From Verrucomicrobiota bacterium (GTDB lineage: Bacteria; Verrucomicrobiota; Verrucomicrobiia; Limisphaerales; SXTU01): 64,000 nucleotides of DNA. Shown here piece after piece: positions 17,254-54,788 of this stretch. The DNA is taken from positions 1-64,000 of the forward strand of contig JACRKB010000032.1 in the NCBI GenBank assembly GCA_016235545.1, given 5' to 3'. Below the pieces are notes generated by a model, which did not search any database, was not told where the DNA came from, and saw only the letters and a list, made by a program, of their open reading frames with translations. A program made the translations under genes and the position numbers. The first letter of the stretch is position 1; every line of letters begins with the position of its first letter.

Positions 17254-17725
17254 AACGAAGTCAGCAAACCGGGTGACGCGCGAAGTGTTCCGATGGGGGA
17301 GGGATGTGTCGAGGCGGGAGTGAGAAGCCAGAAGTCAGAAGTCAGGATGGGGGAGACGCAAGTTGGTTCTCCGCTGTTTTCGGTGGAATGAAAGCCAGCG
17401 GGCGGCGGCACTTCTCCCGGAGGGAGCTTGAAGCTTCGCCGGAGGATGAAGTGGAAGCTGGCGTTGCCCTTCAACGCAGAGACGCAGAGGACGCGAAGGA
17501 ACGCAGAGGGTTTCAACACCAGCAGGGTTCAGCTTTTCGTGCCTTCGCCCAGCCCTTCTCTGCGCAACTCTGCGTCCTCTGCGTCTCTACGTTGAAGGGA
17601 AACGCCCTCATGCAAGGGCATCGTTGTGGCTGATAACCCCGCAATCCATTCCACCGAAAACAGCGGGGAACCCGCAAGTTCGGCACTGCTGCCTTCTGGC
17701 TCCTGGCTTCTGGCTTCAAGGGGCC
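17254..17725. mobile_element. MITE-like element, 25-bp terminal inverted repeats and 7-bp flanking direct repeat
   Basis: GGTTCTCCGCTGTTTTCGGTGGAAT begins at 17365 and returns inverted at 17648-17673 (19 bp perfect at CCGCTGTTTTCGGTGGAAT, 17371-17389 and 17648-17666). GCAAGTT lies directly outside both ends (17358-17364 and 17674-17680) and looks like a target-site duplication. Inside is a second inverted pair, CTTCAACGCAGAGACGCAGAGGACGC (about 17470) and GCGTCCTCTGCGTCTCTACGTTGAAG (about 17572). No transposase ORF is present, so movement would need help in trans. Just outside lie AGAAGTCAGAAGTCAG-type repeats. Nothing else gene-like is visible between the flanking genes. Confidence 0.7.
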
Positions 17726-26020: not shown

Positions 26021-26092
26021 GTGCCGGCGACTTGCAGTCGCCGTCATCTGTGTGCACGACACCCGACGGCGAGTGCAACTCGCCGACGCAGG
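26021..26092. repeat. Palindromic GTGCCGGCGACTTGCAGTCGCCGTC repeat
   Basis: GTGCCGGCGACTTGCAGTCGCCGTC starts 6 nt after the gyrA stop, followed by a degenerate inverted partner (GACGGCGAGTGCAACTCGCCGAC). The first 25 bases recur exactly inside the giant glycosyltransferase gene near 50880-50902, and a diverged copy is in tsaB near 28472. Confidence 0.75.
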
Positions 26093-33332: not shown

Positions 33333-34682
33333 TCATTCCCGCTTCCGCAAGCAATACAGCTTCGTCAGCGTCCGGATGAGCAGGCGGTCGCCGGCGATGG
33401 CCGGGGTGGCCATGCACATTTCATCGAGGGGGTTCTTGTGGAGCAGTTGGTATTCGGGGCCGGCGGCGAAGACGTAAGTGTCGCCATCTTCGCTCAGCGC
33501 GAAGATCTTTCCGTTCGCCGCCCACGGTGACGCGGTGAAGGCGGTGTTGCCCCCGGGGCGGATGCGTTGCTTGTCGTAAACCGGTCCGCCGGTGCGCGCG
33601 TCGTGGCAGCTCAGGAATCCAAAGTCGAACAGCACATAGAAGTGGTCTCCATAGATGAGCGGCGAAGGATTGTAGGGCGCGGCGACCGGCTGCGACCATG
33701 CGATGAACGCGTTGCTCGTCTCGCCTGGCTTGAGGCTGATGTCGCCGGACGCGCCAGGTTTGATGGCGAACACGGGCCGGGTCTTGTCGCCCACGTAACC
33801 GGAACAGACGTAGAGCAGGCCGAATTTCGAGAACGGGGTGGGGATGACAATCGTGGACATGCCGCCAAGCTCCCAGAGCAGTTTGCCGTCGAGGTCGTGG
33901 GAGCGGACGCGTTTGGTCCCGCAGGTGATGAGTTCGGTGCGCAACTCGTTCTGCCAGACATAGGGCGTGGCCCAGTTGCTTTTCTCGTCGCGTTCCACGC
34001 GCCACAGTTGGCGTCCGGTCTTCGCGTCTAGTGCGACGGCGAAAGATTTTTCGTCGTTGTCATTCACGATGAACACGAGGCCGCCATGGACCACGGGCGA
34101 GGCAGCCGAGCCCCAGCCGTAACGCGTCTTAACCGGCGGCCAGTTGGTCTGCCAGAGTTTCTTGCCGGCCATGTCGTAGCAGAACAGACCCACGTTGCCG
34201 AAATAGGCATAGACGCGCTCGCCATCGGTGATGGGCGTTTCGGAGGCGTAGCTGTTCTTGACGTGCAGCCGATTCAGCGGGGCGGCGCGGTGCGCCTCCT
34301 GGCGCCACAGTTCACGCCCGGATTTGAGGTCATGACAGAGGGTCAGCCAGCGATGCGCCGCCGTGGGAATCTCTTTGCGCTCACCACCGAAATAGAGGCC
34401 CTTCTTGGGCGGCTCGACTTCACCTTCGCTTGTCACCGTTGTCACGAACACGCGATCGCCCCAGACGATGGGCGCGGACCAGCCGCGTCCGGGCACCTCG
34501 ATCTTCCACGCGACGTTCTCGTTCGTGCTCCAGCGGTCGGGCAGGTCCGGGTTGTCAGCCACGCCCAGGGCACCGGGTCCTCGGAACTGGGGCCAGTTGC
34601 TGACAGCGGCACAAACAGACGCGGCGGATAAAACGAGCTGGAGCCCAATAATGACTCGGCAGACATGGCGCGGGAAACTCAT
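33333..34682 (-). CDS. Exported PQQ-like beta-propeller protein
   Basis: The ATG at 34682 (MSFPRHVCRVIIGLQLVLSAASVCAA) supplies the signal peptide and gives 449 residues; the longer start in the track is unlikely. NWPQFRGPGALGVADNPDLPDRWS is the family opening, and blades recur in LTLCHDLKSGRELWRQE, LFCYDMAGKKLWQTNW, AVALDAKTGRQLWRVE, VRSHDLDGKLLWELG and FLSCHDARTGGPVYDKQ. This is the third propeller of this kind in the window; it differs from the other two in lacking a C-terminal LamG-like part. A periplasmic binding or assembly role is likely, but the partner is unknown. It sits between the esterase and the tannase-family gene. Confidence 0.85.
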   Translation of the reverse strand: MSFPRHVCRVIIGLQLVLSAASVCAAVSNWPQFRGPGALGVADNPDLPDRWSTNENVAWKIEVPGRGWSAPIVWGDRVFVTTVTSEGEVEPPKKGLYFGGERKEIPTAAHRWLTLCHDLKSGRELWRQEAHRAAPLNRLHVKNSYASETPITDGERVYAYFGNVGLFCYDMAGKKLWQTNWPPVKTRYGWGSAASPVVHGGLVFIVNDNDEKSFAVALDAKTGRQLWRVERDEKSNWATPYVWQNELRTELITCGTKRVRSHDLDGKLLWELGGMSTIVIPTPFSKFGLLYVCSGYVGDKTRPVFAIKPGASGDISLKPGETSNAFIAWSQPVAAPYNPSPLIYGDHFYVLFDFGFLSCHDARTGGPVYDKQRIRPGGNTAFTASPWAANGKIFALSEDGDTYVFAAGPEYQLLHKNPLDEMCMATPAIAGDRLLIRTLTKLYCLRKRE

Positions 34683-35224
34683 GAGCGCAGTCTTGTGAGG
34701 GCACGGCTTGTCAGCAAGCAAAAGAGCCGACGCAAACCTCCGAAAAGATTGATTCACTTGATCCGCTTCAGTGCTGCCCTCAGCCACGCTTGAACCGCGA
34801 AGCGTCCGAATGGCGCGGCCGCCCGCCGCATCGCGGGCGGATGCTCATTCACCACAACCGCTCCGGCCGCACGGCACAGCCGCTCGCCTCCTCCCCCGCA
34901 CACGAGGCCGGATGCGGTTCACGTCGGGAGCCTGAGGCGTGATGTTGCTCATCAGGAACTTCCCCCCACCGCGTCCGTTTGATGCCATTTCGGAATGAGA
35001 TTCGGTGGAATGGCAATGAACCACGACGTGCGCTGACTCCCTCCCCCTTCCTCGGAGGAAGGGAGAAGGCGCGCGTCGTGGCATCCTGTTTGCATTCCAC
35101 CGACCGGCATTGGGAATTGGTATGATTCCACCGGGTTTCGGCAGCGCTCAGCCAGTCATCTTCGGCCCGTCTGTCGCAGATATGGCCAGCCGCGCCGACT
35201 TTCCAGAGAGGGACGAGCCACGCG
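34683..35224. repeat. 542-bp intergenic region with a CGGTGGAAT-bounded repeat element
   Basis: CGGTGGAAT at 35003-35011 and ATTCCACCG at 35125-35133 bound a 131-bp element, with another ATTCCACCG at 35095. CGGTGGAAT is also the inner end of the MITE-like terminal repeat near 17.4 kb. The core CTCGGAGGAAGGGAGAAGGCGCG...GCATTGGGAATTG (35051-35119) matches, at roughly 85 percent by eye, a stretch lying in frame inside the giant glycosyltransferase (about 52950-53019). The short ORFs called here are repeat-derived; I see no gene. Confidence 0.65.
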
Positions 35225-36781
35225 TTACCTGCGTGGAGGGGTGCTGATGAAGTTCTCCGCGTCGTCCGGGTTACCGCTGCCCTTGTATTTCGCCACGTGC
35301 GGAAACGGGAAGAGTGGACGGGTGCGAATGACCTTGCCGCTCGCGTCGCGCTTCTCTGCCATGAGCTTCTCCGGTGCCTGGCCTTCCTCGACCCAGCGGA
35401 GGATGGCTTCATTCAAGCCAGTGGGGGTTGCGCCCGCGCCGCGGAAGCCGTGGTCCACGCCGGGCACAAGGAACAGCCGGGCGAACTCGGCGGTCTTCGC
35501 TTCGCCACCCATGCGTTGCTGCAACCGCCGGTAGTAATCAATGCTGCCCGCCGCCGGAATCAGCTGGTCGGCAAGCCCGTGGTAGATGATGACCTTGCTG
35601 CCGCGGTCACGGAAGCGGGTGAGATCGGGGTCGTCGGTGCCGATCACCGCGCCGTATTGCTCCACGGACTTGGTCCAGAGCTGCTCAAAGCCCGCGTGGT
35701 TCAGCGTGGTCCAATCCCACTTGGCATCTTGCGCCAGAAAGTAGATCCAGTAGTCGAGCGAGATGCTAAACGGCCTGCCCTTGAGCGGCGAGCCCGTGGT
35801 GCCGGCATATGCGAACATGTCCGCACCGCGTTCCAAGCCATGCCACATGAAGCTGCCATCACGCCGGCGCGGGCCTTGCCAAATCTTGCGGATCACCTCG
35901 GCGTCGGGGGCTGTGAACGTCTCCCCGCCCACCTTGGTGCCCACCAGTGCCTGCGGGTCGTAGGCGCAACGAAGCGGATCGTCGATGACCCCGTCCTTCA
36001 CGCCGTCATCCGTGTCGCTGGCGGCGATGGCAGCGGCGGTGGCAGCGTCCAGTTTTGCCTTCGACACGAAGTTCGACGTGGAGAGCATGACCACCTCGGG
36101 CCAGAGGCCCGCGGGCACGAAGCGCTGCCAGTTGATCGCGGGGCAGGCGGAGAGAATGCCATCGTAGTCCTCAGGGAAGCGTTGCGCCTCCATCAGGCCC
36201 TGACGTCCGCCTGTCGAGCCGCCGACGAAATACGAGTAGCGCGGAGCCTTGCCGTAAAACGCCTTGGTGACCGCCTTGCCCACCACGGTCATCTCGTGGA
36301 TGCCGAGATAGGCGTTGTCAATGATGCCCTGCCAGTTCTGCCGCCCGGTCGCGTCGAGCGCGAAACTCCCGCTGCCCCCCTCGTGCCCGGTGTCCGTCGC
36401 CCCGGCCGAAAAGCCCCGGGCCACCGGGCCGCGCACGCTGCCGGGGTTCCCCCCGACGAAGCCGCCGCCGCCCGTGCCTTGAAAGCGCCCGTTCCAGTTC
36501 GTCAACGGCAGCCCGACCCAGACCTTGATGCGGTTGGTCGCCGGTGGATGCGTGACGATGGCGGTCACGAGACAGGTGTTGAGCTTCTCATCCACCACCA
36601 CCGACTCGATCGTGGTGTTCGGCAGCAACAGCCGCTTGAGGGCTTCCGGGGCGCATACCGGTGCCAGCCCCGGATACAGCCGTGATTCTGCGGCGGGCGC
36701 AGCCGTCAGAGCGTTCGCGACCAAGAGCACGGACAGGAGTCGGCGGATTCGAAGGCAAGTCAGGCAGCGTGGGAGGTTCAT
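35225..36781 (-). CDS. Tannase/feruloyl esterase family protein
   Basis: The 518-residue secreted protein has a signal peptide near residues 10-30 (LSVLLVANALTAAPAAES). Family features: RIKVWVGLPLTNWNGRFQGTGGGGFVGG, the nucleophile elbow YFVGGSTGGRQGLMEAQ, the calcium-binding loop DTDDGVKDGVIDDPLRCAYD, the acid in GLADQLIPAAGSI and the histidine in VPGVDHGFRG. Members hydrolyse gallate or ferulate esters, or mono(2-hydroxyethyl) terephthalate. Oddly, the two cysteines that normally join the catalytic Ser and His (GCSxGG and HC) are both Gly here (GGSTGG and HG), so the usual CS-D-HC disulfide is lost as a pair. The substrate is open. The gene is divergent from a histidine kinase. Confidence 0.88.
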   Translation of the reverse strand: MNLPRCLTCLRIRRLLSVLLVANALTAAPAAESRLYPGLAPVCAPEALKRLLLPNTTIESVVVDEKLNTCLVTAIVTHPPATNRIKVWVGLPLTNWNGRFQGTGGGGFVGGNPGSVRGPVARGFSAGATDTGHEGGSGSFALDATGRQNWQGIIDNAYLGIHEMTVVGKAVTKAFYGKAPRYSYFVGGSTGGRQGLMEAQRFPEDYDGILSACPAINWQRFVPAGLWPEVVMLSTSNFVSKAKLDAATAAAIAASDTDDGVKDGVIDDPLRCAYDPQALVGTKVGGETFTAPDAEVIRKIWQGPRRRDGSFMWHGLERGADMFAYAGTTGSPLKGRPFSISLDYWIYFLAQDAKWDWTTLNHAGFEQLWTKSVEQYGAVIGTDDPDLTRFRDRGSKVIIYHGLADQLIPAAGSIDYYRRLQQRMGGEAKTAEFARLFLVPGVDHGFRGAGATPTGLNEAILRWVEEGQAPEKLMAEKRDASGKVIRTRPLFPFPHVAKYKGSGNPDDAENFISTPPRR

Positions 36782-45376: not shown

Positions 45377-48300
45377 TCATGCGGCGACAGGTTGACCGGC
45401 CTCCTCCATGGCCTCCGACAGCACGCGCGCGGCGGTGGGCAGATGTGGACGAAGCGCCTCGAGGCGTTCGTTGATGGTCGCCAGCAATTCACCCGCGCTG
45501 AACGAAATCAGCCGGCGATACCAACGAACGAATTCCCGGCTCACCGCAGCTTCCCCGGCGGCAAAGGACGCGGTCTCGGTTCCCTCCACCAACTCCAGCA
45601 GCAGGCGCGCCGACTCGTGGATGGCATTTCCCCTCTGCGAGCTGCGGCGGAGCAGCGCCAGCGCCTCGCTGCTCTGCTGCGACAGCATCAACGCCTCCGC
45701 CCGCTGCACGAGCACACCGTTGTGTTCGGGGAAATGAGCAACGGCCTCGCCAGTCCAGTCAGCCGCGAACTCGATGAACTCGGGCCGGCTCAAGGCAAGC
45801 TGCCCGCCCAGCAGCCACACATGCGGCTCTTGCGCCGCGTCGCCAACCATCGCGTGCAACGTTTGCAGCGCGTCCACCACGCGACCGCGCTCGCCCAGCC
45901 ACCGTGCGAAATCAAATCGCGCCGCCCGCGCTCCGGCATCCTCCGCAAGCGCGGCCAGAAACGCCTTCTCTGTCTCGGCGTGTTGCCCCGCGCCCCACCG
46001 GCACAGCGCGAGCACATGGTGCGGCCCGGCCTTGCGGATGTCGCGGTTCACTGGCGAGAGCGTCGGCTCATCGCGCTTCGCGAGACACTGATGCATCTGC
46101 CCGGCCCCATCAGAGAACTGCTTCAGCTCCAGCGCCGCCAGGCCGGCCATGAAATGAATCGAGGCCGTCAGCCCGCCTTGCTGCGCAAGCGGTGATTCGA
46201 CCACGCGCAGCACCTCGGCGAACTCCTTCGCCGTGTGAAGGTGGCAGACATATTGGGTCAGCAATGCTTCGCGCAACTCGGGCACAACGTCTTTCTTCGG
46301 CAGCCCCGCGAGCTGACTGAAGGCTGAACGGTAGTGTTCCAACCCTTCTCGCAACTGCCCGGAGCGCACCAGCTCCAGGCCCATGTTCATCAGCAGCATC
46401 GGTTCGCCCGGCAGTTCCTCGATGGCCCGTCGCAGCAGCCGTAGATTTCGCTCTATCTTGTTCCGGTCCGCGATGACCTCCGCGCTGTAGCCGTGGTGCC
46501 GCAAGGTTGCCGTGCCCAGGCGCGTCTCCATTCCCCATGCCTCGCACTTCACGAGGATGCTTGGGAACACCTGCTCATGGACGCGCCCGTAGAAGAACAG
46601 GCCCGGCGCGTTGCGCCACAGGCGCGGCACGTAGCACTGCCCGTCCTCTTCTTGCCCGACGTTTTGCAAACGCAGCCGCACGGCCAGAACGTCGGCCGCT
46701 GCCATGTCCGCCCGCAACTTCGCGTGCTCGCAGGCCGGCAGCTCCTCGTCCGCATCGAGGAACATCACCCAGTCCCCGGTCGCGTGCGCAAGCGCCGCAT
46801 TGCGCGCCGCGCTGAAGTCGTCCTCCCACGGATGCGAATACACCTCCGCCCCGCGCATCTTCGCGATTTCCACCGTGCTGTCGGTCGAGCCGGTGTCCAC
46901 CACGATGAGCTGGTCCGCCAGGCCCCGCACAGAATCGAGGCACTGGCCAAGAAACTTTTCCTCGTTCTTGGCGATGACGAAAATGGTCAGGCGCGGCTGC
47001 CCGGCCTTTGCGGGCAGCGCGGGCCAGCGGACGTTCGAGACGCGTCCGCGCGACTGCAGAGCCTTGTGAAATCTCTTCGCGGCCCGCCAATGCGGGACAA
47101 GCTGGCGCGCGCGCGCCGCACACTCGCGCGCCATCGCCACATCGCCGGCAGCCTGCGCCGTCTCCGCAAGCAACAGCCACGCCTCGGGGTGGAACGGGCG
47201 CGCCTCCAGCGCCATCAGCGTCTCAGTCCACGCGGCGAAGTGTTGACCCCGCTGCAATGCCGCGCGCGCCACCGTCAAGTCACCGACCCGGCCCACCGGC
47301 GGCAGCTTGAGCTGAAACGTCGGCAGGCTTCCACTGGCGGTGTCACCACCCCGCGCCACGTCCGTGATGAACGGCGCGGGCGCGGGCGCCGGAGCGGCGC
47401 GCTGCCCTTCACCCGCGAAAGCCAGCAGCAGTTTCTCCCACTCGTCCCACTCGCGCTCGCGCGGAAAGTCCTTCGCCGTCGCCAGCCCGCCTTGCACCAG
47501 GCGCTCGCGCAGAGAGCGGTCGCGCATCAGCTTTTCCACCGCCTCCGCGATGGCCTCGGGCGAGCCCACCGGCACGAGCAGGCAGTTCACGCCTTCGCGG
47601 CAATACTCCCGCGCGCCTGGCGTGTCCGTGCAGACCACGGCTGCGCCGGCGGCCATCGCCTCTTGCGGCGGGCGCGGGCAGGAGTCGTAGTGGGACGCGT
47701 AGATGAGAATGTCCGCCGTGCCGAAGAGGAATGTCTTGAGTTCATCCGCCGGCGCGACGTGAAACTCGCAGGGAAACTTCGCAAAAATCTCCGGCCCGGT
47801 GCCGGAGATGCGGACAGCGGTGAAGTGCGGGCAGCGCTTCGCCAGCAGCGTCAGCGCGTCGTGGATTTCCTGAATGCCCTTGAACGTGAGCGGCTCCTCC
47901 CGCGTGCCACGCGAGTCCGGCCCAACTATGAGGAGGCGCAGCTTCGAGCCTGGCAAGGCGCGCGACAGCGGGCGGAAAACCGTCTGGTCCGTGCAGACCG
48001 GGAGAATCGCGTCGGCCTTCCGGCCCGTCGTGCGCTCGACCGCGCGGGCGAGGTTGTGAGAATTCGCCACGAAACGCACGCCCGGTGCCTGATACGACAG
48101 GCCCGACAGCTCGCGCAGCAGCCGATGCTGCTCCGTGTCCGGCAGCGTCGCATCGGCGAAGACATACTGGTCGCCCTGTGCGTAATAGACCTTCACCGGC
48201 GCGGTGACTGCCTTCAGCTCGTGTGTGTTCGTGAAGTAGGTGCTCACCACCACGTCGCTGGGCGGAACGGACGTCGCCATCCCCTGCCCTTCCGGCACGC

Positions 48301-51300
48301 GCACCACTCGCACCTGAAACTGAAACCAATCCGGCTTCTCCGTGCGCGTGACGATGGTCACGTCGTGACCCTTGCGCCGCAGCTCCTCCGCCTGCCGCAG
48401 CAGCGTCTGGTTGCCGCCAGTCACGCCGAGAATGCTCTCGATGAGATAGGTCACGCGCAGCGTGCGGTCCGGTGTGGCTGCGGCTTCACGGGGCGGCGAG
48501 GCCGGCACGGCACTGCCTTGAGCAGCGCGCAACGCACTTTCCTCCACCCTCTCATCAGCACCGGGCTTCAGCCCGGTGGAGTGCGCGGGCGAGGCAGCAG
48601 CCGTTTCAACGGCTTCTGCCCTGTCATTTCCGCCCCCGCACAGCACCGCCAGATTCTCCTTCGCAATCGCGTTGTCCGGCTCCAACTCCAGTGCGCGCGC
48701 GATGACGAGCCGTGCCGTCTCCCTGTCGCCCGCGTGCTGAAGGCAGAACGCCAGGCCCAGCAGCGTGTCCACGCAGTCGGGTGACTGTTGCAAAATGCGT
48801 CCGAAAACCTTCGCCGCATCCGCCCAGCGGCCAGCCTCGCGGTTCAGCCGCGCGAGCAGGCGCAGCGCGTCGAGATTCTCCGGCTCCAACTCCAGCGCAC
48901 GCGCCAGCGCCGCTTCGAACTCCTCGACGCGGCCAAGCTGCACGGCCGTCGTGGCCAGCTTCAAGTGCGCAGCCGCGCTCCGTGGCTTGTGCCGGACCGC
49001 CAGCACAAATTCCACTCGGGCCGGCTCCAGTTCGCCAAGCTGGAACAGCACGCTGCCCAACGCTTCGCGCAGCTCGCCAGACTCCGGCAGCAGCGCAACC
49101 GCCTGGCGAAGCGCATCCCGTGCGCCGGGCAGGTTGCCTTGGCTGAAGTGCGTTTCGGCGCGGGCAATGTGTTCACTCACAAACACAGCCGGACGCTGCG
49201 CCTCCGCCTCCGGTGCGACGCGTGCCCACACCTGCGACGCCCACTCGTGCGACGCGGCGTCGTAAGTCTTCGGATGGTTCAGCACGATGCGCGCGCGCAG
49301 CTCCGCATCGCGCTTCGCCGCCGTGGTCAGCATGCTGCCGGCCTTGATGCGATAGCGGAACAACGGCTCGGCAATCTTCCGCGCCTTGAATCCTCGCTCC
49401 GCAGCGCCAATCCAAAAATCCCAATCCTCGTAGCCCCAGACCAGGTTCGGATTGTAGCCTCCCACCGCATCGAAGACCTCACGCCGGTAGAGCGAGCAAT
49501 AGTTGAGCTGGTTGAGCGTCGCCAGTTTCGCGAGGGAGAACTCGCCAGTCTGAAATACGCCGTCGGCATCCCCGAAGCGCAGCAGGTCGGTGAAGACGAT
49601 GTGCGTGTCCGGGTTGGCTTCGAGCACCGCGACCGTCTTTGCGAGGAAGTCCGGCGCGAGCCCATCGTCGGCGTCGAGCGGGAGAATGTGTTTGCCCAGT
49701 GCGAGGGCGATGCCGTTGTTGCGCGCCATCGCAAGGCCTTGGTTTGGCTGGTTGAGCAGGTGGATTCGGTGCGATGGATTTTCGCGAATCAGCCGCTCTG
49801 CGACCGCGCTGGTGTCATCGGGGCTGCCGTCGTTGACGATGATGATTTCCCACTCGGCGTGAGTTTGAGCGAGCACGCTGGCCACGGCCTCGGGCAGCAG
49901 GTGCGCCTGCTTGAAGCACGGGATGACGACGGACACGAGCGGCGGGCAGGCCGACTTCGCGACGAGGAGCAGCTCGACTTCCTGATGGCAGGCGTTCGGG
50001 GTGAAGCCGTCGTAAGCGGCCACGTTCACTCGCTGGCCCTCGGCGAAGAGCCGCGCCAGCGTGGCGGGCGAAAGCTCGTTGCGCGCGCCGGCACGGTTGT
50101 TGAAGTCCGCTTGGACCTTGTTGACCGGCGCGCAGAACGTGAGCGACTGCGGCACGCAGAGCAGCAGCGGATGCGACTCGCGGAAACGCGGCGCGCTCTC
50201 GGCGAGGCGGGCTTCGAGCGTGTTGGGATTATTGAAGTCGAGCGACTCCAGCAGCGGGCGCAGGTCTGCCAGCCGGTAGAGCGAGCTGGAGACTTCAAGC
50301 GGATATGCGAAGTCGCAGTCCGCACCGGGCCACGCGAAGGCGAGCGTGGCCGCGCCGGGTTCAGCGAATGTCGGCAGTGCCTGCGCACGGTTGAGCGGAT
50401 AGCAATAGGTCGTGTTCCGGCCCAGCCGCAGGGAATGGCCCACCGCGCGCGGCTCGATGGCGAGCTGGGCGCTGAGTTCAGCGAGCGTGAAATCGCGGAC
50501 GAACAAGTTGTCGTCCACGAGGAAGAGAACTTGGTCCGCACCGGCAATGGATTGAAGCAGGTCGGTCTTGAAGCGCTGCTCGGCGATGAACTCGGCGGCG
50601 GGATACTCACGGGTGAGCGCGGCGTATTGGACACGGTGCGCGGTGTCGCTGGCACAGTGAAGGACACGCAGCTTCGCGCGCCCGGCGTCGCGGCAATGGC
50701 GATAGAACGAGCGGATGGTGGCGTCGAGCTGGAGCGCGCGGTCCTTCGAGAAGATGACGGCGGTGATGGCGGCTGGCTCCAGCGGCTGTGCCGACGACTT
50801 GCAGTCGCCGGCGGTTGGAGCAACCGCAACTGGACTTGGTGCGTTGCAGCAGCCACTGGTAGCGGGGGATGCGACAGACGGCGACTGCAAGTCGCCGGCA
50901 CGGGTGCGGGCGTGAGCGAGGCGGAGATACAACTCCTCCCAGCGGTCCACGACGGAATCCCACGTCAGCTTCTCCTTCCACTCGCGGTGTCCGGCTTCGG
51001 CGAGCTGGACGCGAAGGCTCTCGTTGTCGAGCAGGTGCGAGGCTTGCGCGGCCATGTCGTCGGGCGCGCAGACCACGCCGCCCTGCCACTCGCGGACGTT
51101 GCCGCAGTCGGTGGAGACAAACGGCAGGCGCGCGGCCTTCGCTTCGATGATGACCAACGGAGACGCCTCGACGTGCGAGCCGAACAGGAACACGTCGGCA
51201 CTGCGGAACGCGGCCACAACATCTTCGCGCGGCACACCGGTGAGGAAGCGCACGTTCAGGCCGGCGGCCTGCGCACGCAGCGCGGCGAGCGTGCCGCCGT

Positions 51301-54300
51301 CGTGGCCGATGAAGACCATCGTGAAGTCCGGCCGGGCCATGCGGCGGACGGTTTCGAGGACGCGCTCCTGGCCTTTGCCCGGCATGAAGTTCGCCACGCA
51401 CAGGCCGAAGTGGCGCGTGGTGAGGCGATACTTCTCCCGGAAGTTCACGGCCAGCGGGCGCGTGAACTCGTCGGTGTCCGTGCCGTTCGGGATGACGAGG
51501 CCGTTCTTCAAGCCGAGGCGTTCGCCGAACGCGAAGTCCTGGTAGGTCGCCGAGTGATAGACCGCCGCGTCGTAGAGCGGCAGCACCGCCGGCAGGAAGT
51601 CCTGAAAGTAGGCGCGAAACTGCGGCCAGCGCAGCGTGCCCGCGTCGGCGAGCGCCGAGTAGCCGCACGGCGCAAGGACGTTGGCGCGGCGCGGGCGAAG
51701 CTCTTGAAGCAGCGGCATGGCGAGGTCGGTGGCCCATTGCTGCGCGGCGTAATTCATCATCACGTCGCAGTTGAACTCGCGGAGGAACTGCTGGTAACGG
51801 GCGAACTCGCCGTTCACGCCTTCGGCCAGTTTGCCGCTGACGGCGAACTCAACGATGCCGACGCCGTTCAACTCGCGGAACGCGCGGTCCGGCAACTTTG
51901 TCGTCGCCACCGTCACGCGATGGCCACGGCGCGCGAGCCGCTCGGAGAGCTGCTGGACGACCAGCTCCGCACCGCCGGTGTGCGGGGCGTAGAACTCGAC
52001 GGTGTGCAGGAGGTTGAGGCGCGTTGAGCCGCCGGCCCGGCGCGGGGTGCGCGCTTCCGGCGTCGTGGCGCGGGAGGCGACCTGGCCGGCCTGGTAGTCG
52101 GCGCGGATGATGGCGGCGAGTTCCTCCTGCTGCTGCGCGCGCGTGCTGCCGACGCTGGCGGGATGCAGCCGAATGCGGTGCAGGACTTCGGGCAAGTTCG
52201 CCAGCTCGAAGCCGGCGAGCAGCGCGCGGGCGAAGAAGTCGTAGTCGTCCACGGAGCGGAACGCCTCGCGATACGGGCCGACCTGCTCGAAGACGGCGCG
52301 ACGAATTAGCGCGGCGCTGTTCACCATCGAGTTCAGCTTGCCGAAGGTCGCACGAATGCGGGCTGGCTCGTGCTCCAGCGGCGGGCAGCCTAGGGATTTG
52401 CCGGTGTCGTCGAAGTATTCCGCGAAGCAACCAATGGCGGCGATGTCAGCGTGCGTCTCCAGGTGGGCCACGAGCTTCGCGAGCTTGTCCGGCAACGACA
52501 GGTCATCGCTGTCGTGGTTGAGCAAATAGCGCGAGCCGGGGTGCGCGGCCATGACAGCCTCGTTGCGCGCGGCGACCTCGCCGCGATGCGACAGGGCCAG
52601 CACGCGGATGCGTGGGTCGCGCTGCGCGTAGTCGCGAGCGATGGCGAGCGTGCGGTCGGTCGAGCCGTCGTCGGCGAGGAGGATTTCAAAGTCACCGAAG
52701 GTCTGGGCCAGCAGCGAGTCGAGTGTGGTCGGCAAGTAGTGCTCGCGGTTGTAGGCGGGGATGAAGATGGAGACGAGCGGCGGGCGTGCGCTGAGGGTGG
52801 TGGCCGTCGCGACTGGTGCGGCGCACACCGCCGCAGTCCGACTCCCGCTCGCTTCCTCGGAGGAGGGGAGAGGGTTGGGGTGAGGGGTGACGTGCGGAGG
52901 CGTTGGCACCTCCCACCCCTCATCCGGCCTGCGGCCACCTTCTCCCCTCCTCCGAGGAAGGGAGAAGGCGCGTCTCGTGGCGTTCGGTTCGCATTCCGCC
53001 GACTGGCATTGGGAATTGCTAATAGTCAGCGCGCCGTGGAGTTGTGTGAACTTTTCCATCCAGATGCTGTGCAGGCGGGTTTCGCTGGCGGAGGCATCCA
53101 CGAGGTTCTCGCGGAGGATGTCGGCCACGGCGGTGGCAAGCTCGCCGGGCGAACGCATCACGACCTTCACGGCGGTGGCGGTGACGTTGCGCGTCATCTG
53201 CCATTCGCCGAGCTGGCAGTGGACTTCGCCGAAGCCGAGCGCGCCGAGGACGCGCTGGTATTTGGCTGGATACCAGCCGTCGTAGTGGACCGCCCAGGCG
53301 GCCTCGTGCGAGCCGAAGAGGTGGCGAAGGACGACTTGTTTTTGAGCGAAGCTGGGCTGCGGCTCCGTGAGCAGACGCGCAGAAGCCTCGGCGTCGGGGG
53401 TCTCGATGGTCAGGCGACCGCCGGGCTTGAGCCAGCGTTGCCAGCGGCAGAGCAGCGCGAGCGCGGTGGGGCGGTCGAAGTGCTCGAAGACGTGGTGCAG
53501 CCGGACTTCGTCCACGCTCGCGGCGGGAAGGTCGAGGCGGATGATGTCGGCGAAAATGTCCGCCGCGACGCTGGTCTGCACGGTGTGCTCGGCGGGCGGG
53601 AAGTCCACGTTCACGTAGCCATCGAAGCGCTGCTCGCCGCAGCCGAGGTGCAGGCGCAGTGGGGCGCCGGGCTGCCAGAGGTGCGCCTGCTGAAGTTGGG
53701 CCAGAAAGCTGCGCTCAGCGGAGCCGCCGCCGGTCGGCTTCCAGCGCGGCTTCGACGCCGGGGCGGGGTGCAGGTCGCGGAGAAATTTTTCAAAAAACGC
53801 CGTGGTGGAATACTCACGCACGGCGCGCTGATGGGCGCGCTCGGCGATGGCGGCGTAGCGCGGATAGTCGGCAAGGATTGCGCGCAGGATGTCTTGAAGG
53901 CGGTCCGGCTCGAAATAGACAAACTCGGTGCCCGGCTCGAAGTAGCGCTCGACGAGATTCCACGGGTCGCGCTGGCAGAGGATGAGCGAGCGGCAGAAGG
54001 CGGCCCCGAAGAGCCGCGACTTGAGCTGCGGTGCCGGCCATGTCTGGTCGGGCGCGGCGGCGAGGAGTTCCGCGCTGCCGGGCAGCGGGAGCTGGGAGAA
54101 GGCCGTGTTCTCGCGCCAGTGCGCGTGTCGCGCGACGTTTTCAATTTGCTGCCGGGTGACGAAGAGCTGGTTGTGAACAAGTGTGACGCGGGAGCGGGCG
54201 ATGAGGGAGAGCTTCTCCTGATAGCTGCAATTGAAGTCTGTCACCGCCGGGTGCCGGAGCTGCGAGACGAAGCGATGGCGGAACGGCGCGAGGTCGCGGA

Positions 54301-54724
54301 TGAGCCTGTCAATGCCGGCGGCATGGACGCCGCCGGTGTAAATGACATCGAACTCCTTCGCGCACGGCGCTGGCGTGTGGCGCTCGTTGAAGGGGAAGAA
54401 CGCGGGCGTCCAGCGGTCGGTCTCTCCCCGGCGGTTGAGCCACTCGGCGGTGAAGGGGCAGAGCGTGAGGACATTCGCGAAGCGCTCGTCGCGGTCGAGG
54501 TGATGGAAGTCGGTGGCAGACTCGGGCACCAGGAACCGGTTCGGCTCCTCGAGTTCGAGATAGACCGCGCGCTCATCGGGTGGAAGCGCGTCGAGCGCCT
54601 TGAAATCGAAGTGGCCGGCGAAGAAAGCAAAATCGCCGGCGGTCTGGCCGGCGAAGCGGGTGAAGTCGAAGTAGCGCGCGGGGTCCTCGGGGTAGGTCCG
54701 CGCATGGTCGGTGATGACACGCAT
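45377..54724 (-). CDS. Giant modular glycosyltransferase/methyltransferase/TPR protein
   Basis: About 3,115 residues. The ATG at 54724 (MRVITDHARTYPEDPARYFDFTRF) is preferred to 54769 because the 15 extra residues fall over a hairpin. Modules, numbered from 54769: CgeB/GT1-like about 1-340; SAM methyltransferase about 365-520 (RLHLGCGEQRFDGYVNVDF); GT2 about 663-900 (VSIFIPAYNREHYLPTTLDS, LLADDGSTDRT); GT4 about 917-1280; GT2-like about 1335-1590 (AVIFSKDRALQLDATI); GT2 about 1609-1865 (IIIVNDGSPDDT); TPRs about 1870-2060; GT4 about 2100-2450; GT2 about 2590-2820 (FVIAKNEEKFLGQCLDS, VVDTGSTDST); TPRs to the end. No signal peptide or transmembrane helix is seen. It follows a STELLO-like gene and flagellin on the same strand, hence a likely flagellin or surface-polymer glycosylation role. 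Three repeat-encoded linkers mark module joins. Confidence 0.9.
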   Translation of the reverse strand: MRVITDHARTYPEDPARYFDFTRFAGQTAGDFAFFAGHFDFKALDALPPDERAVYLELEEPNRFLVPESATDFHHLDRDERFANVLTLCPFTAEWLNRRGETDRWTPAFFPFNERHTPAPCAKEFDVIYTGGVHAAGIDRLIRDLAPFRHRFVSQLRHPAVTDFNCSYQEKLSLIARSRVTLVHNQLFVTRQQIENVARHAHWRENTAFSQLPLPGSAELLAAAPDQTWPAPQLKSRLFGAAFCRSLILCQRDPWNLVERYFEPGTEFVYFEPDRLQDILRAILADYPRYAAIAERAHQRAVREYSTTAFFEKFLRDLHPAPASKPRWKPTGGGSAERSFLAQLQQAHLWQPGAPLRLHLGCGEQRFDGYVNVDFPPAEHTVQTSVAADIFADIIRLDLPAASVDEVRLHHVFEHFDRPTALALLCRWQRWLKPGGRLTIETPDAEASARLLTEPQPSFAQKQVVLRHLFGSHEAAWAVHYDGWYPAKYQRVLGALGFGEVHCQLGEWQMTRNVTATAVKVVMRSPGELATAVADILRENLVDASASETRLHSIWMEKFTQLHGALTISNSQCQSAECEPNATRRAFSLPRRRGEGGRRPDEGWEVPTPPHVTPHPNPLPSSEEASGSRTAAVCAAPVATATTLSARPPLVSIFIPAYNREHYLPTTLDSLLAQTFGDFEILLADDGSTDRTLAIARDYAQRDPRIRVLALSHRGEVAARNEAVMAAHPGSRYLLNHDSDDLSLPDKLAKLVAHLETHADIAAIGCFAEYFDDTGKSLGCPPLEHEPARIRATFGKLNSMVNSAALIRRAVFEQVGPYREAFRSVDDYDFFARALLAGFELANLPEVLHRIRLHPASVGSTRAQQQEELAAIIRADYQAGQVASRATTPEARTPRRAGGSTRLNLLHTVEFYAPHTGGAELVVQQLSERLARRGHRVTVATTKLPDRAFRELNGVGIVEFAVSGKLAEGVNGEFARYQQFLREFNCDVMMNYAAQQWATDLAMPLLQELRPRRANVLAPCGYSALADAGTLRWPQFRAYFQDFLPAVLPLYDAAVYHSATYQDFAFGERLGLKNGLVIPNGTDTDEFTRPLAVNFREKYRLTTRHFGLCVANFMPGKGQERVLETVRRMARPDFTMVFIGHDGGTLAALRAQAAGLNVRFLTGVPREDVVAAFRSADVFLFGSHVEASPLVIIEAKAARLPFVSTDCGNVREWQGGVVCAPDDMAAQASHLLDNESLRVQLAEAGHREWKEKLTWDSVVDRWEELYLRLAHARTRAGDLQSPSVASPATSGCCNAPSPVAVAPTAGDCKSSAQPLEPAAITAVIFSKDRALQLDATIRSFYRHCRDAGRAKLRVLHCASDTAHRVQYAALTREYPAAEFIAEQRFKTDLLQSIAGADQVLFLVDDNLFVRDFTLAELSAQLAIEPRAVGHSLRLGRNTTYCYPLNRAQALPTFAEPGAATLAFAWPGADCDFAYPLEVSSSLYRLADLRPLLESLDFNNPNTLEARLAESAPRFRESHPLLLCVPQSLTFCAPVNKVQADFNNRAGARNELSPATLARLFAEGQRVNVAAYDGFTPNACHQEVELLLVAKSACPPLVSVVIPCFKQAHLLPEAVASVLAQTHAEWEIIIVNDGSPDDTSAVAERLIRENPSHRIHLLNQPNQGLAMARNNGIALALGKHILPLDADDGLAPDFLAKTVAVLEANPDTHIVFTDLLRFGDADGVFQTGEFSLAKLATLNQLNYCSLYRREVFDAVGGYNPNLVWGYEDWDFWIGAAERGFKARKIAEPLFRYRIKAGSMLTTAAKRDAELRARIVLNHPKTYDAASHEWASQVWARVAPEAEAQRPAVFVSEHIARAETHFSQGNLPGARDALRQAVALLPESGELREALGSVLFQLGELEPARVEFVLAVRHKPRSAAAHLKLATTAVQLGRVEEFEAALARALELEPENLDALRLLARLNREAGRWADAAKVFGRILQQSPDCVDTLLGLAFCLQHAGDRETARLVIARALELEPDNAIAKENLAVLCGGGNDRAEAVETAAASPAHSTGLKPGADERVEESALRAAQGSAVPASPPREAAATPDRTLRVTYLIESILGVTGGNQTLLRQAEELRRKGHDVTIVTRTEKPDWFQFQVRVVRVPEGQGMATSVPPSDVVVSTYFTNTHELKAVTAPVKVYYAQGDQYVFADATLPDTEQHRLLRELSGLSYQAPGVRFVANSHNLARAVERTTGRKADAILPVCTDQTVFRPLSRALPGSKLRLLIVGPDSRGTREEPLTFKGIQEIHDALTLLAKRCPHFTAVRISGTGPEIFAKFPCEFHVAPADELKTFLFGTADILIYASHYDSCPRPPQEAMAAGAAVVCTDTPGAREYCREGVNCLLVPVGSPEAIAEAVEKLMRDRSLRERLVQGGLATAKDFPREREWDEWEKLLLAFAGEGQRAAPAPAPAPFITDVARGGDTASGSLPTFQLKLPPVGRVGDLTVARAALQRGQHFAAWTETLMALEARPFHPEAWLLLAETAQAAGDVAMARECAARARQLVPHWRAAKRFHKALQSRGRVSNVRWPALPAKAGQPRLTIFVIAKNEEKFLGQCLDSVRGLADQLIVVDTGSTDSTVEIAKMRGAEVYSHPWEDDFSAARNAALAHATGDWVMFLDADEELPACEHAKLRADMAAADVLAVRLRLQNVGQEEDGQCYVPRLWRNAPGLFFYGRVHEQVFPSILVKCEAWGMETRLGTATLRHHGYSAEVIADRNKIERNLRLLRRAIEELPGEPMLLMNMGLELVRSGQLREGLEHYRSAFSQLAGLPKKDVVPELREALLTQYVCHLHTAKEFAEVLRVVESPLAQQGGLTASIHFMAGLAALELKQFSDGAGQMHQCLAKRDEPTLSPVNRDIRKAGPHHVLALCRWGAGQHAETEKAFLAALAEDAGARAARFDFARWLGERGRVVDALQTLHAMVGDAAQEPHVWLLGGQLALSRPEFIEFAADWTGEAVAHFPEHNGVLVQRAEALMLSQQSSEALALLRRSSQRGNAIHESARLLLELVEGTETASFAAGEAAVSREFVRWYRRLISFSAGELLATINERLEALRPHLPTAARVLSEAMEEAGQPVAA
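48559..48578. repeat. Perfect palindrome CACCGGGCTTCAGCCCGGTG inside the giant gene
   Basis: The arms CACCGGGCT and AGCCCGGTG are perfect complements with a 2-nt loop. The stretch is read in frame as STGLKPGAD between the TPR block and the second GT4 module. The flanking CTCCACCCTCTCATCAG is also repeat-like. Confidence 0.7.
50788..50902. repeat. Inverted pair of GTGCCGGCGACTTGCAGTCGCC repeats inside the giant gene
   Basis: TGCCGACGACTTGCAGTCGCCGGC at one end and GACGGCGACTGCAAGTCGCCGGCAC at the other form an inverted pair of about 25 bp around an 60-70 bp centre. In frame it encodes AGDLQSPSVASPATSGCCNAPS and TAGDCKSSAQP between the first GT4 and the next GT2-like module. The outer 25 bp match the intergenic copy at 26021 exactly. 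Confidence 0.8.
52850..53030. repeat. Mosaic repeat inside the giant gene, copy of the 35.05-kb intergenic element
   Basis: It contains GAGGGTTGGGGTGAGGGG, then CCGAGGAAGGGAGAAGGCGCG and GCATTGGGAATTG. It is read in frame as NSQCQSAECEPNATRRAFSL, then RRRGEGGRRPDEG and PHPNPLPSSEE, the kind of peptide obtained by translating interspersed repeats. It lies between the methyltransferase and the first GT2 module. Confidence 0.8.
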
Positions 54725-54788
54725 AAAGTTTTTCGGGCTGGGTGCGCCAGCCCGGTTGCAATCGCTCAATCCACGGCGGGAAGAGGTT

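Follow-up and report, generated by a model that had tools for sequence, protein, structure and literature searches.

Two stretches of the window, as we call the 64,000-nucleotide stretch of DNA analysed here, resemble each other, one lying between two genes and the other inside a giant open reading frame (ORF). The question that they raise is whether an inserting element has landed at both places and, at the second, entered a protein gene in frame. The first-pass annotation had proposed such an insertion and regarded the two stretches as a clean pair for testing it.

Two unequal copies in the window

The two stretches are related, well beyond chance. The recurrence of the core in the giant gene, as first annotated, is borne out by an ungapped match of 82% identity over 91 nt; aligned locally, the two copies reach a score of 59.5 while 500 shuffles gave at most 15.5, which disposes of a chance-level match, and the exact 14-mer GGCATTGGGAATTG is found in both copies, at 35106 and 53005. 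The features concerned, in window coordinates, are as follows.

33333-34787, minus strand: PQQ_2 beta-propeller protein, neighbour of the 35-kb copy (Pfam PF13360, E=3.4e-18)
34980-34982, no strand: left flanking TGA, putative target-site duplication of TNA type (matched triplets, 15/22 copies with both ends, permutation p=5e-5)
34983-35122, plus strand: 140-bp short form of a probably MITE-like element (alignment with genome copies; 94-bp internal deletion relative to the 234-bp consensus)
34983-35013, plus strand: left terminal inverted repeat, TGCCATTTCGGAATGAGATTCGGTGGAATGG (sequence)
35039-35069, no strand: inner palindrome CCCTCCCCCTTCCTCGGAGGAAGGGAGAAGG, apparently the long form's two core hairpins fused into one
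35092-35122, minus strand: right terminal inverted repeat, TACCAATTCCCAATGCCGGTCGGTGGAATGC on the minus strand (sequence)
35123-35125, no strand: right flanking TGA, putative target-site duplication (matched triplets)
35225-36781, minus strand: tannase/feruloyl esterase, neighbour of the 35-kb copy (Pfam PF07519, E=2.3e-93)
45377-54769, minus strand: 3130-aa multi-domain glycosyltransferase ORF, carrying the second copy (Pfam, open frame)
52829-53021, plus strand: second copy, long form with the left ~41 bp missing (193 bp, 90% to consensus positions 42-234)

The first copy lies, as annotated, between the PQQ and tannase genes, both neighbours being confirmed by Pfam. An element is indeed present there, but its boundaries are not those of a 131-bp unit at 35003-35133: alignment with the genome copies gives 140 bp, from 34983 to 35122, with terminal inverted repeats of ~31 bp (TACC..CGGTGGAATG) and a TGA on either side. 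The sequence CGGTGGAAT at 35003 falls inside the left terminal repeat and has its true partner at 35094-35102, and ATTCCACCG at 35125-35133 is a third such sequence, outside the element. The second copy in the giant gene is likewise real, but it extends over 193 bp (52829-53021) and not from about 52950 to 53019. The description of the two as a clean pair did not hold up: the 35-kb copy is the internally deleted 140-bp form, the 53-kb copy is the long form truncated at one end, and they have only the right arm in common.

A palindromic family with matched TNA flanks

With the 35-kb stretch as query, the own genome (311 contigs, 5.0 Mb) gave 109 matching pieces at ~45 places, and most of these copies lie between genes. 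The long form measures 234 bp and is a near-complete inverted repeat with paired ends of ~31 bp; its consensus, when folded, gives a single long hairpin (-161.5 kcal/mol), and three of the six reading frames of this consensus are open. Rfam gave only sub-threshold microRNA hairpins, which we take as chance. When the copies are aligned with their flanks, the ends read TACC(A/T)TTC..CGGTGGAATG on the left and the complement on the right, a terminal inverted repeat (TIR) pattern with 27 matches in the own genome and none for the reversed control. Directly outside the ends stand matching triplets, TGA, TCA or TAA, which are identical in 15 of the 22 copies having both ends, a number reached in 5 of 100,000 permutations of the right-hand triplets (p=5e-5); because the T and A of TNA are nearly constant, this rests mainly on one informative base per copy, the middle one, which is equal in 19 of the 22.

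The 140-bp form is represented by the 35-kb copy and at least three others. The 94 bp that it lacks equal the exact spacing of the inner palindromes (consensus 57-87 and 151-181), and we therefore infer a deletion between these palindromes, which may have arisen by recombination or slippage. Many copies, the 53-kb copy among them, have no left ~34-42 bp; such copies were seen in the genomes G000, G002, G008, G009 and G010.

We consider it probable that the element is a non-autonomous, MITE-like DNA transposon. A transposase would have moved the copies in trans, most likely a DDE enzyme duplicating TNA, as in the IS1031 group of the IS5 family, whose TNA target duplication the element has but whose ends (GAACC/GAGCC) it has not. 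Set against a transposon of this kind are the near constancy of the T and A of TNA, the occurrence of the core with different flanks in other species, and the many copies without the left ~35-42 bp, for which simple transposition does not account. The search for a parent also weighs against it. Among 11 genomes of the genus, no autonomous parent with the element's ends was found with the TIR pattern, extra matches being inspected, and scanning PF01609 genes (own genome) and PF13340 genes (genus) for these ends gave nothing. The 11 congeneric assemblies are fragmented, with repeats often at contig ends, and the absence from them of a DDE transposase with TACCAATTC/TACCAATTCCCAATG ends is weak evidence. 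The IS5-type genes found in the genus have other ends: one insertion sequence (IS) starts GAGCCTGTCTG, and G010, which belongs to the window's genus, has an IS1031-like IS starting GAGCCTG where the element's ends are TACC(A/T)TTC-like. G010 also holds, on two contigs (L134 about 1500-1800, L140 about 636), a similar gene fragment, possibly an IS, ~460-490 bp from truncated copies. A public metagenome-assembled genome titled Klebsiella pneumoniae isolate HRSG-E1-bin-52 (L276-L278) has the contigs of G010, and its title looks wrong.

Other repeats were noticed in the same DNA. A second inverted-end element occupies 17365-17672 of the window, with ends that contain CGGTGGAATG and 26-bp arms that are 96% complementary; the own genome has 67 matches to it, in which pieces of the arms and pieces of the interior turn up independently of each other. 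The palindrome GGCGACTTGCAGTCGCC stands at 26026-26042, 50793-50809 and 50880-50896. When one mismatch is permitted it has 95 matches in the own genome, often as facing pairs, while the control has 1. Two of the palindromes fall in the giant glycosyltransferase gene that carries the 53-kb copy, and the peptide GDLQSP, which the palindrome encodes, is also found at two places of the AddA protein of G009.

The inner part of the element has a wider distribution. This ~130-bp core (consensus positions about 53-181) is conserved, in whole or in part, in G004, G005 and G039, where other sequences flank it, and it is more widespread than the element ends. It is made of two hairpins facing each other. 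Across 74 copies their loops are mainly of three types, CCUC/GAGG, CAUC/GAUG and UUGC/GCAA, and 150 cells have changes on both sides. This covariation points to a hairpin kept by compensatory change; arm-to-arm exchange could also give it. The 234-bp query was matched in 34 of 58 relatives, many by the core only, and the core query in 2 of 195 sampled genomes of the phylum, namely the own genome and one weak match. Core-like DNA also turned up in 253 plasmid records, from Rhizobium, Sinorhizobium, Azospirillum and others; in this comparison, made with the core alone, the matches of best coverage are 74% identical over 91% of the core. These plasmid matches may be RIMEs. Because the flanks of the core are not the same in other species, its history may differ from that of the ends.

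Elsewhere in the genus the core is conserved where the ends are lacking; this, and its two facing hairpins with compensatory loop changes, would also suit a REP/REPIN-type unit. In such a unit the palindromic core would be what moves, as single-stranded hairpin DNA handled by a RAYT/TIRYT-like Y1 transposase, and the terminal repeats would be a shell that it once entered. A match to the GGGGWSAS motif of TIRYT repeats (PMC3733652) is present in the core, as GGGGTGAG, but no GTAG or CGTC tag stands beside the core hairpins in the consensus. Y1 transposases are present in the genus, but a Y1/RAYT parent was rejected, the flanks of 16 Y1 hits carrying other inverted repeats and not the core. The own-genome copies, moreover, have matched TNA flanks, which IS200/IS605-type transposition is not known to make. 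We regard movement of the core by a Y1 enzyme as rather unlikely, and continue with the MITE-like transposon as the preferred reading.

Copies inside protein genes

In a gene, the long form together with its 3-bp duplication would add 237 nt, or 79 codons. This length is frame-neutral and the consensus has three open frames out of six, so that a copy landing in a surface linker could be translated as a neutral insert; that the inserts are translated is suggested by their open frames.

The 53-kb copy encodes about residues 583-647 of the 3130-aa ORF, in an interdomain linker. Pfam recognizes a methyltransferase-like stretch before it, at 378-495, and a GT2 domain after it, at 667-830, and the frame runs without a stop from the one through the copy to the other. 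Together with the ~45 copies, the terminal repeats and the TNA flanks, this stop-free ORF upholds the original proposal of one intergenic and one coding copy of an inserting element. The giant ORF might instead be two adjacent genes, with the 53-kb copy between them, open by chance and untranslated; three open consensus frames, and the fact that several other copies fall in spurious long ORFs of this G+C-rich genome, lend this some weight. The stop codon that two genes would need is, however, absent between the methyltransferase-like stretch and the GT2 domain, and the upstream product therefore cannot end before the insert; AddA, moreover, supplies an example of an insert within one conserved protein. 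We hold two genes to be quite improbable here, and read the 53-kb copy as part of a single gene.

Among the relatives searched, none was found to have this glycosyltransferase gene arrangement and lack the insert. As to whether coding copies are younger, a question that had been raised at the outset, the 53-kb copy does not look young: its terminal branch of 0.12 exceeds those of most of its nearest intergenic copies, in a tree where the forks within its closest group are poorly resolved.

A search with the encoded peptide found the element in an AddA-type helicase-nuclease of G000, G009 and G010. Pfam identifies UvrD_C and a weak PDDEXK_1 in this protein, and we call it AddA because of that domain order, UvrD_C and then PDDEXK_1. 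The insert is in frame just before the nuclease motif, between ..VQREVPFTARF..AMGL and EFVIVQGVADLVVF..LLDYKTD. Elsewhere in the order, AddA orthologues match both sides of the insertion site, and the aligned orthologues that lack the element have a short linker or nothing there. All three inserts have in common a one-base deletion and the junction CGAGGGTGCC, which is absent from every other locus fetched; the inserts of these three congeners are therefore most likely derived from one insertion, apparently an old one kept in frame. The length differences among them preserve the frame, and in the copy tree they group with one intergenic own-genome copy (support 89). With and without the insert in relatives, AddA is the clean test of insertion that the 35-kb/53-kb pair is not.

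The same gene, having uninserted orthologues, allows a direct test of selected as against tolerated inserts. In pairwise comparisons the insert has a synonymous divergence of 0.12-0.21, as against 0.57-0.68 for the flanks, and a non-synonymous divergence of 0.12-0.21, as against 0.08-0.09; its dN/dS is about 0.5-1.6. By Fisher tests on a small sample (33-38 synonymous sites), the insert shows less synonymous change than the flanks (p=0.002-0.005) and as much non-synonymous change or more (p=0.42, 0.019 and 0.014). The suggestion that coding copies might be under selection thus meets a first answer from AddA: the frame is kept, purifying selection on the encoded peptide is not seen, and synonymous sites change less than in the flanks. 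We read the low synonymous change as constraint on the DNA palindrome or as gene conversion with other copies. Structure prediction for the C-terminal region of AddA (mean pLDDT 43, lowest within the insert) was too poor to use.

An open frame in three species, frame-preserving length differences and synonymous change below that of the flanks would also be expected if the coding copies were selected functional peptides, serving as linkers or regulatory inserts, and not tolerated junk. We find this very improbable, given that non-synonymous change is not reduced in the insert, that its dN/dS is about 0.5-1.6, and that constraint on the palindrome or gene conversion better explains the reduced synonymous change. 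Tolerated insertion remains the reading that we prefer.

Of the ~45 own-genome copies, two were confirmed as coding, those in the glycosyltransferase and in AddA, and in-frame coding copies in this genome, as judged from their reading frames, number at least two. ORFs open through other own-genome copies, read by eye, were antisense-looking or upstream of the likely start and were not counted, and a GT2 gene apparently preceded by the element (C262) was set aside, the copy being actually upstream of another gene. A single case comes from G024, a genome of another family: an RtcB gene with a short core-derived peptide before YRQWGEG; this gene (L083 1501-1550) possibly holds a second repeat-derived stretch, HPLIPSFSPSGGEGVRRT.

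Relation to known repeats

In-frame palindromic inserts are best known from Rickettsia, and the present element adds a repair-enzyme case common to three species. For annotators, peptides of the type RAFSLPRRRGEGGRRPDEGW..PHPNPLPSSEEG can be regarded as repeat-derived. More broadly, and tentatively, an uncultured lineage other than Rickettsia may have several hairpin families whose members have time and again inserted in frame into protein genes. Their open frames and a frame-neutral length (234+3 nt) would help them spread through coding sequence, and constraint would act on the DNA hairpin and not on the peptide; we think this possible, though on the doubtful side.

Rickettsia palindromic elements (RPE) are ~150-bp palindromic repeats in many copies, some of which have entered unrelated protein genes in frame and are translated there into additional peptides (PMC10969869). 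Like them, the element is a palindromic multi-copy repeat with an in-frame insert in a conserved gene (AddA) that is absent from orthologues. It differs in sequence, host and length, in having TACC-type terminal repeats and matched TNA flanks, and in the share of copies confirmed in genes, 2 of ~45 in the own genome as against nearly half for RPE in Rickettsia conorii.

The IS1031 group of the IS5 family targets TNA with a 3-bp duplication, the site of ISLrh being TGA (PMC12016507). The element is like this group and its possible MITEs in its TNA target, TGA being its commonest flank, but its ends start TACC and not GAACC (ISLrh, PMC12016507) or GAGCC (the IS of G010). RIMEs, the Rhizobium-specific intergenic mosaic elements, are named intergenic repeats of rhizobia (PMC2573895); the possible likeness to them lies in the core-like DNA on plasmids, as compared for the core alone.

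Intragenic GTAG/CGTC REPs are found in genes of replication and repair, among them uvrA of Opitutus terrae and recB of Xanthomonas, possibly in loops or linkers (PMC3733652). The element is likewise a palindromic repeat inside a repair gene, which here too includes the RecBCD type, but unlike them it has no GTAG/CGTC tag, is longer, has terminal repeats and matched TNA flanks, and is not beside Y1 transposases. Judged by its copies and their reading frames, the element appears to behave like RPE and the REPs of repair genes, while differing from them in its sequence, its ends and its TNA flanks.
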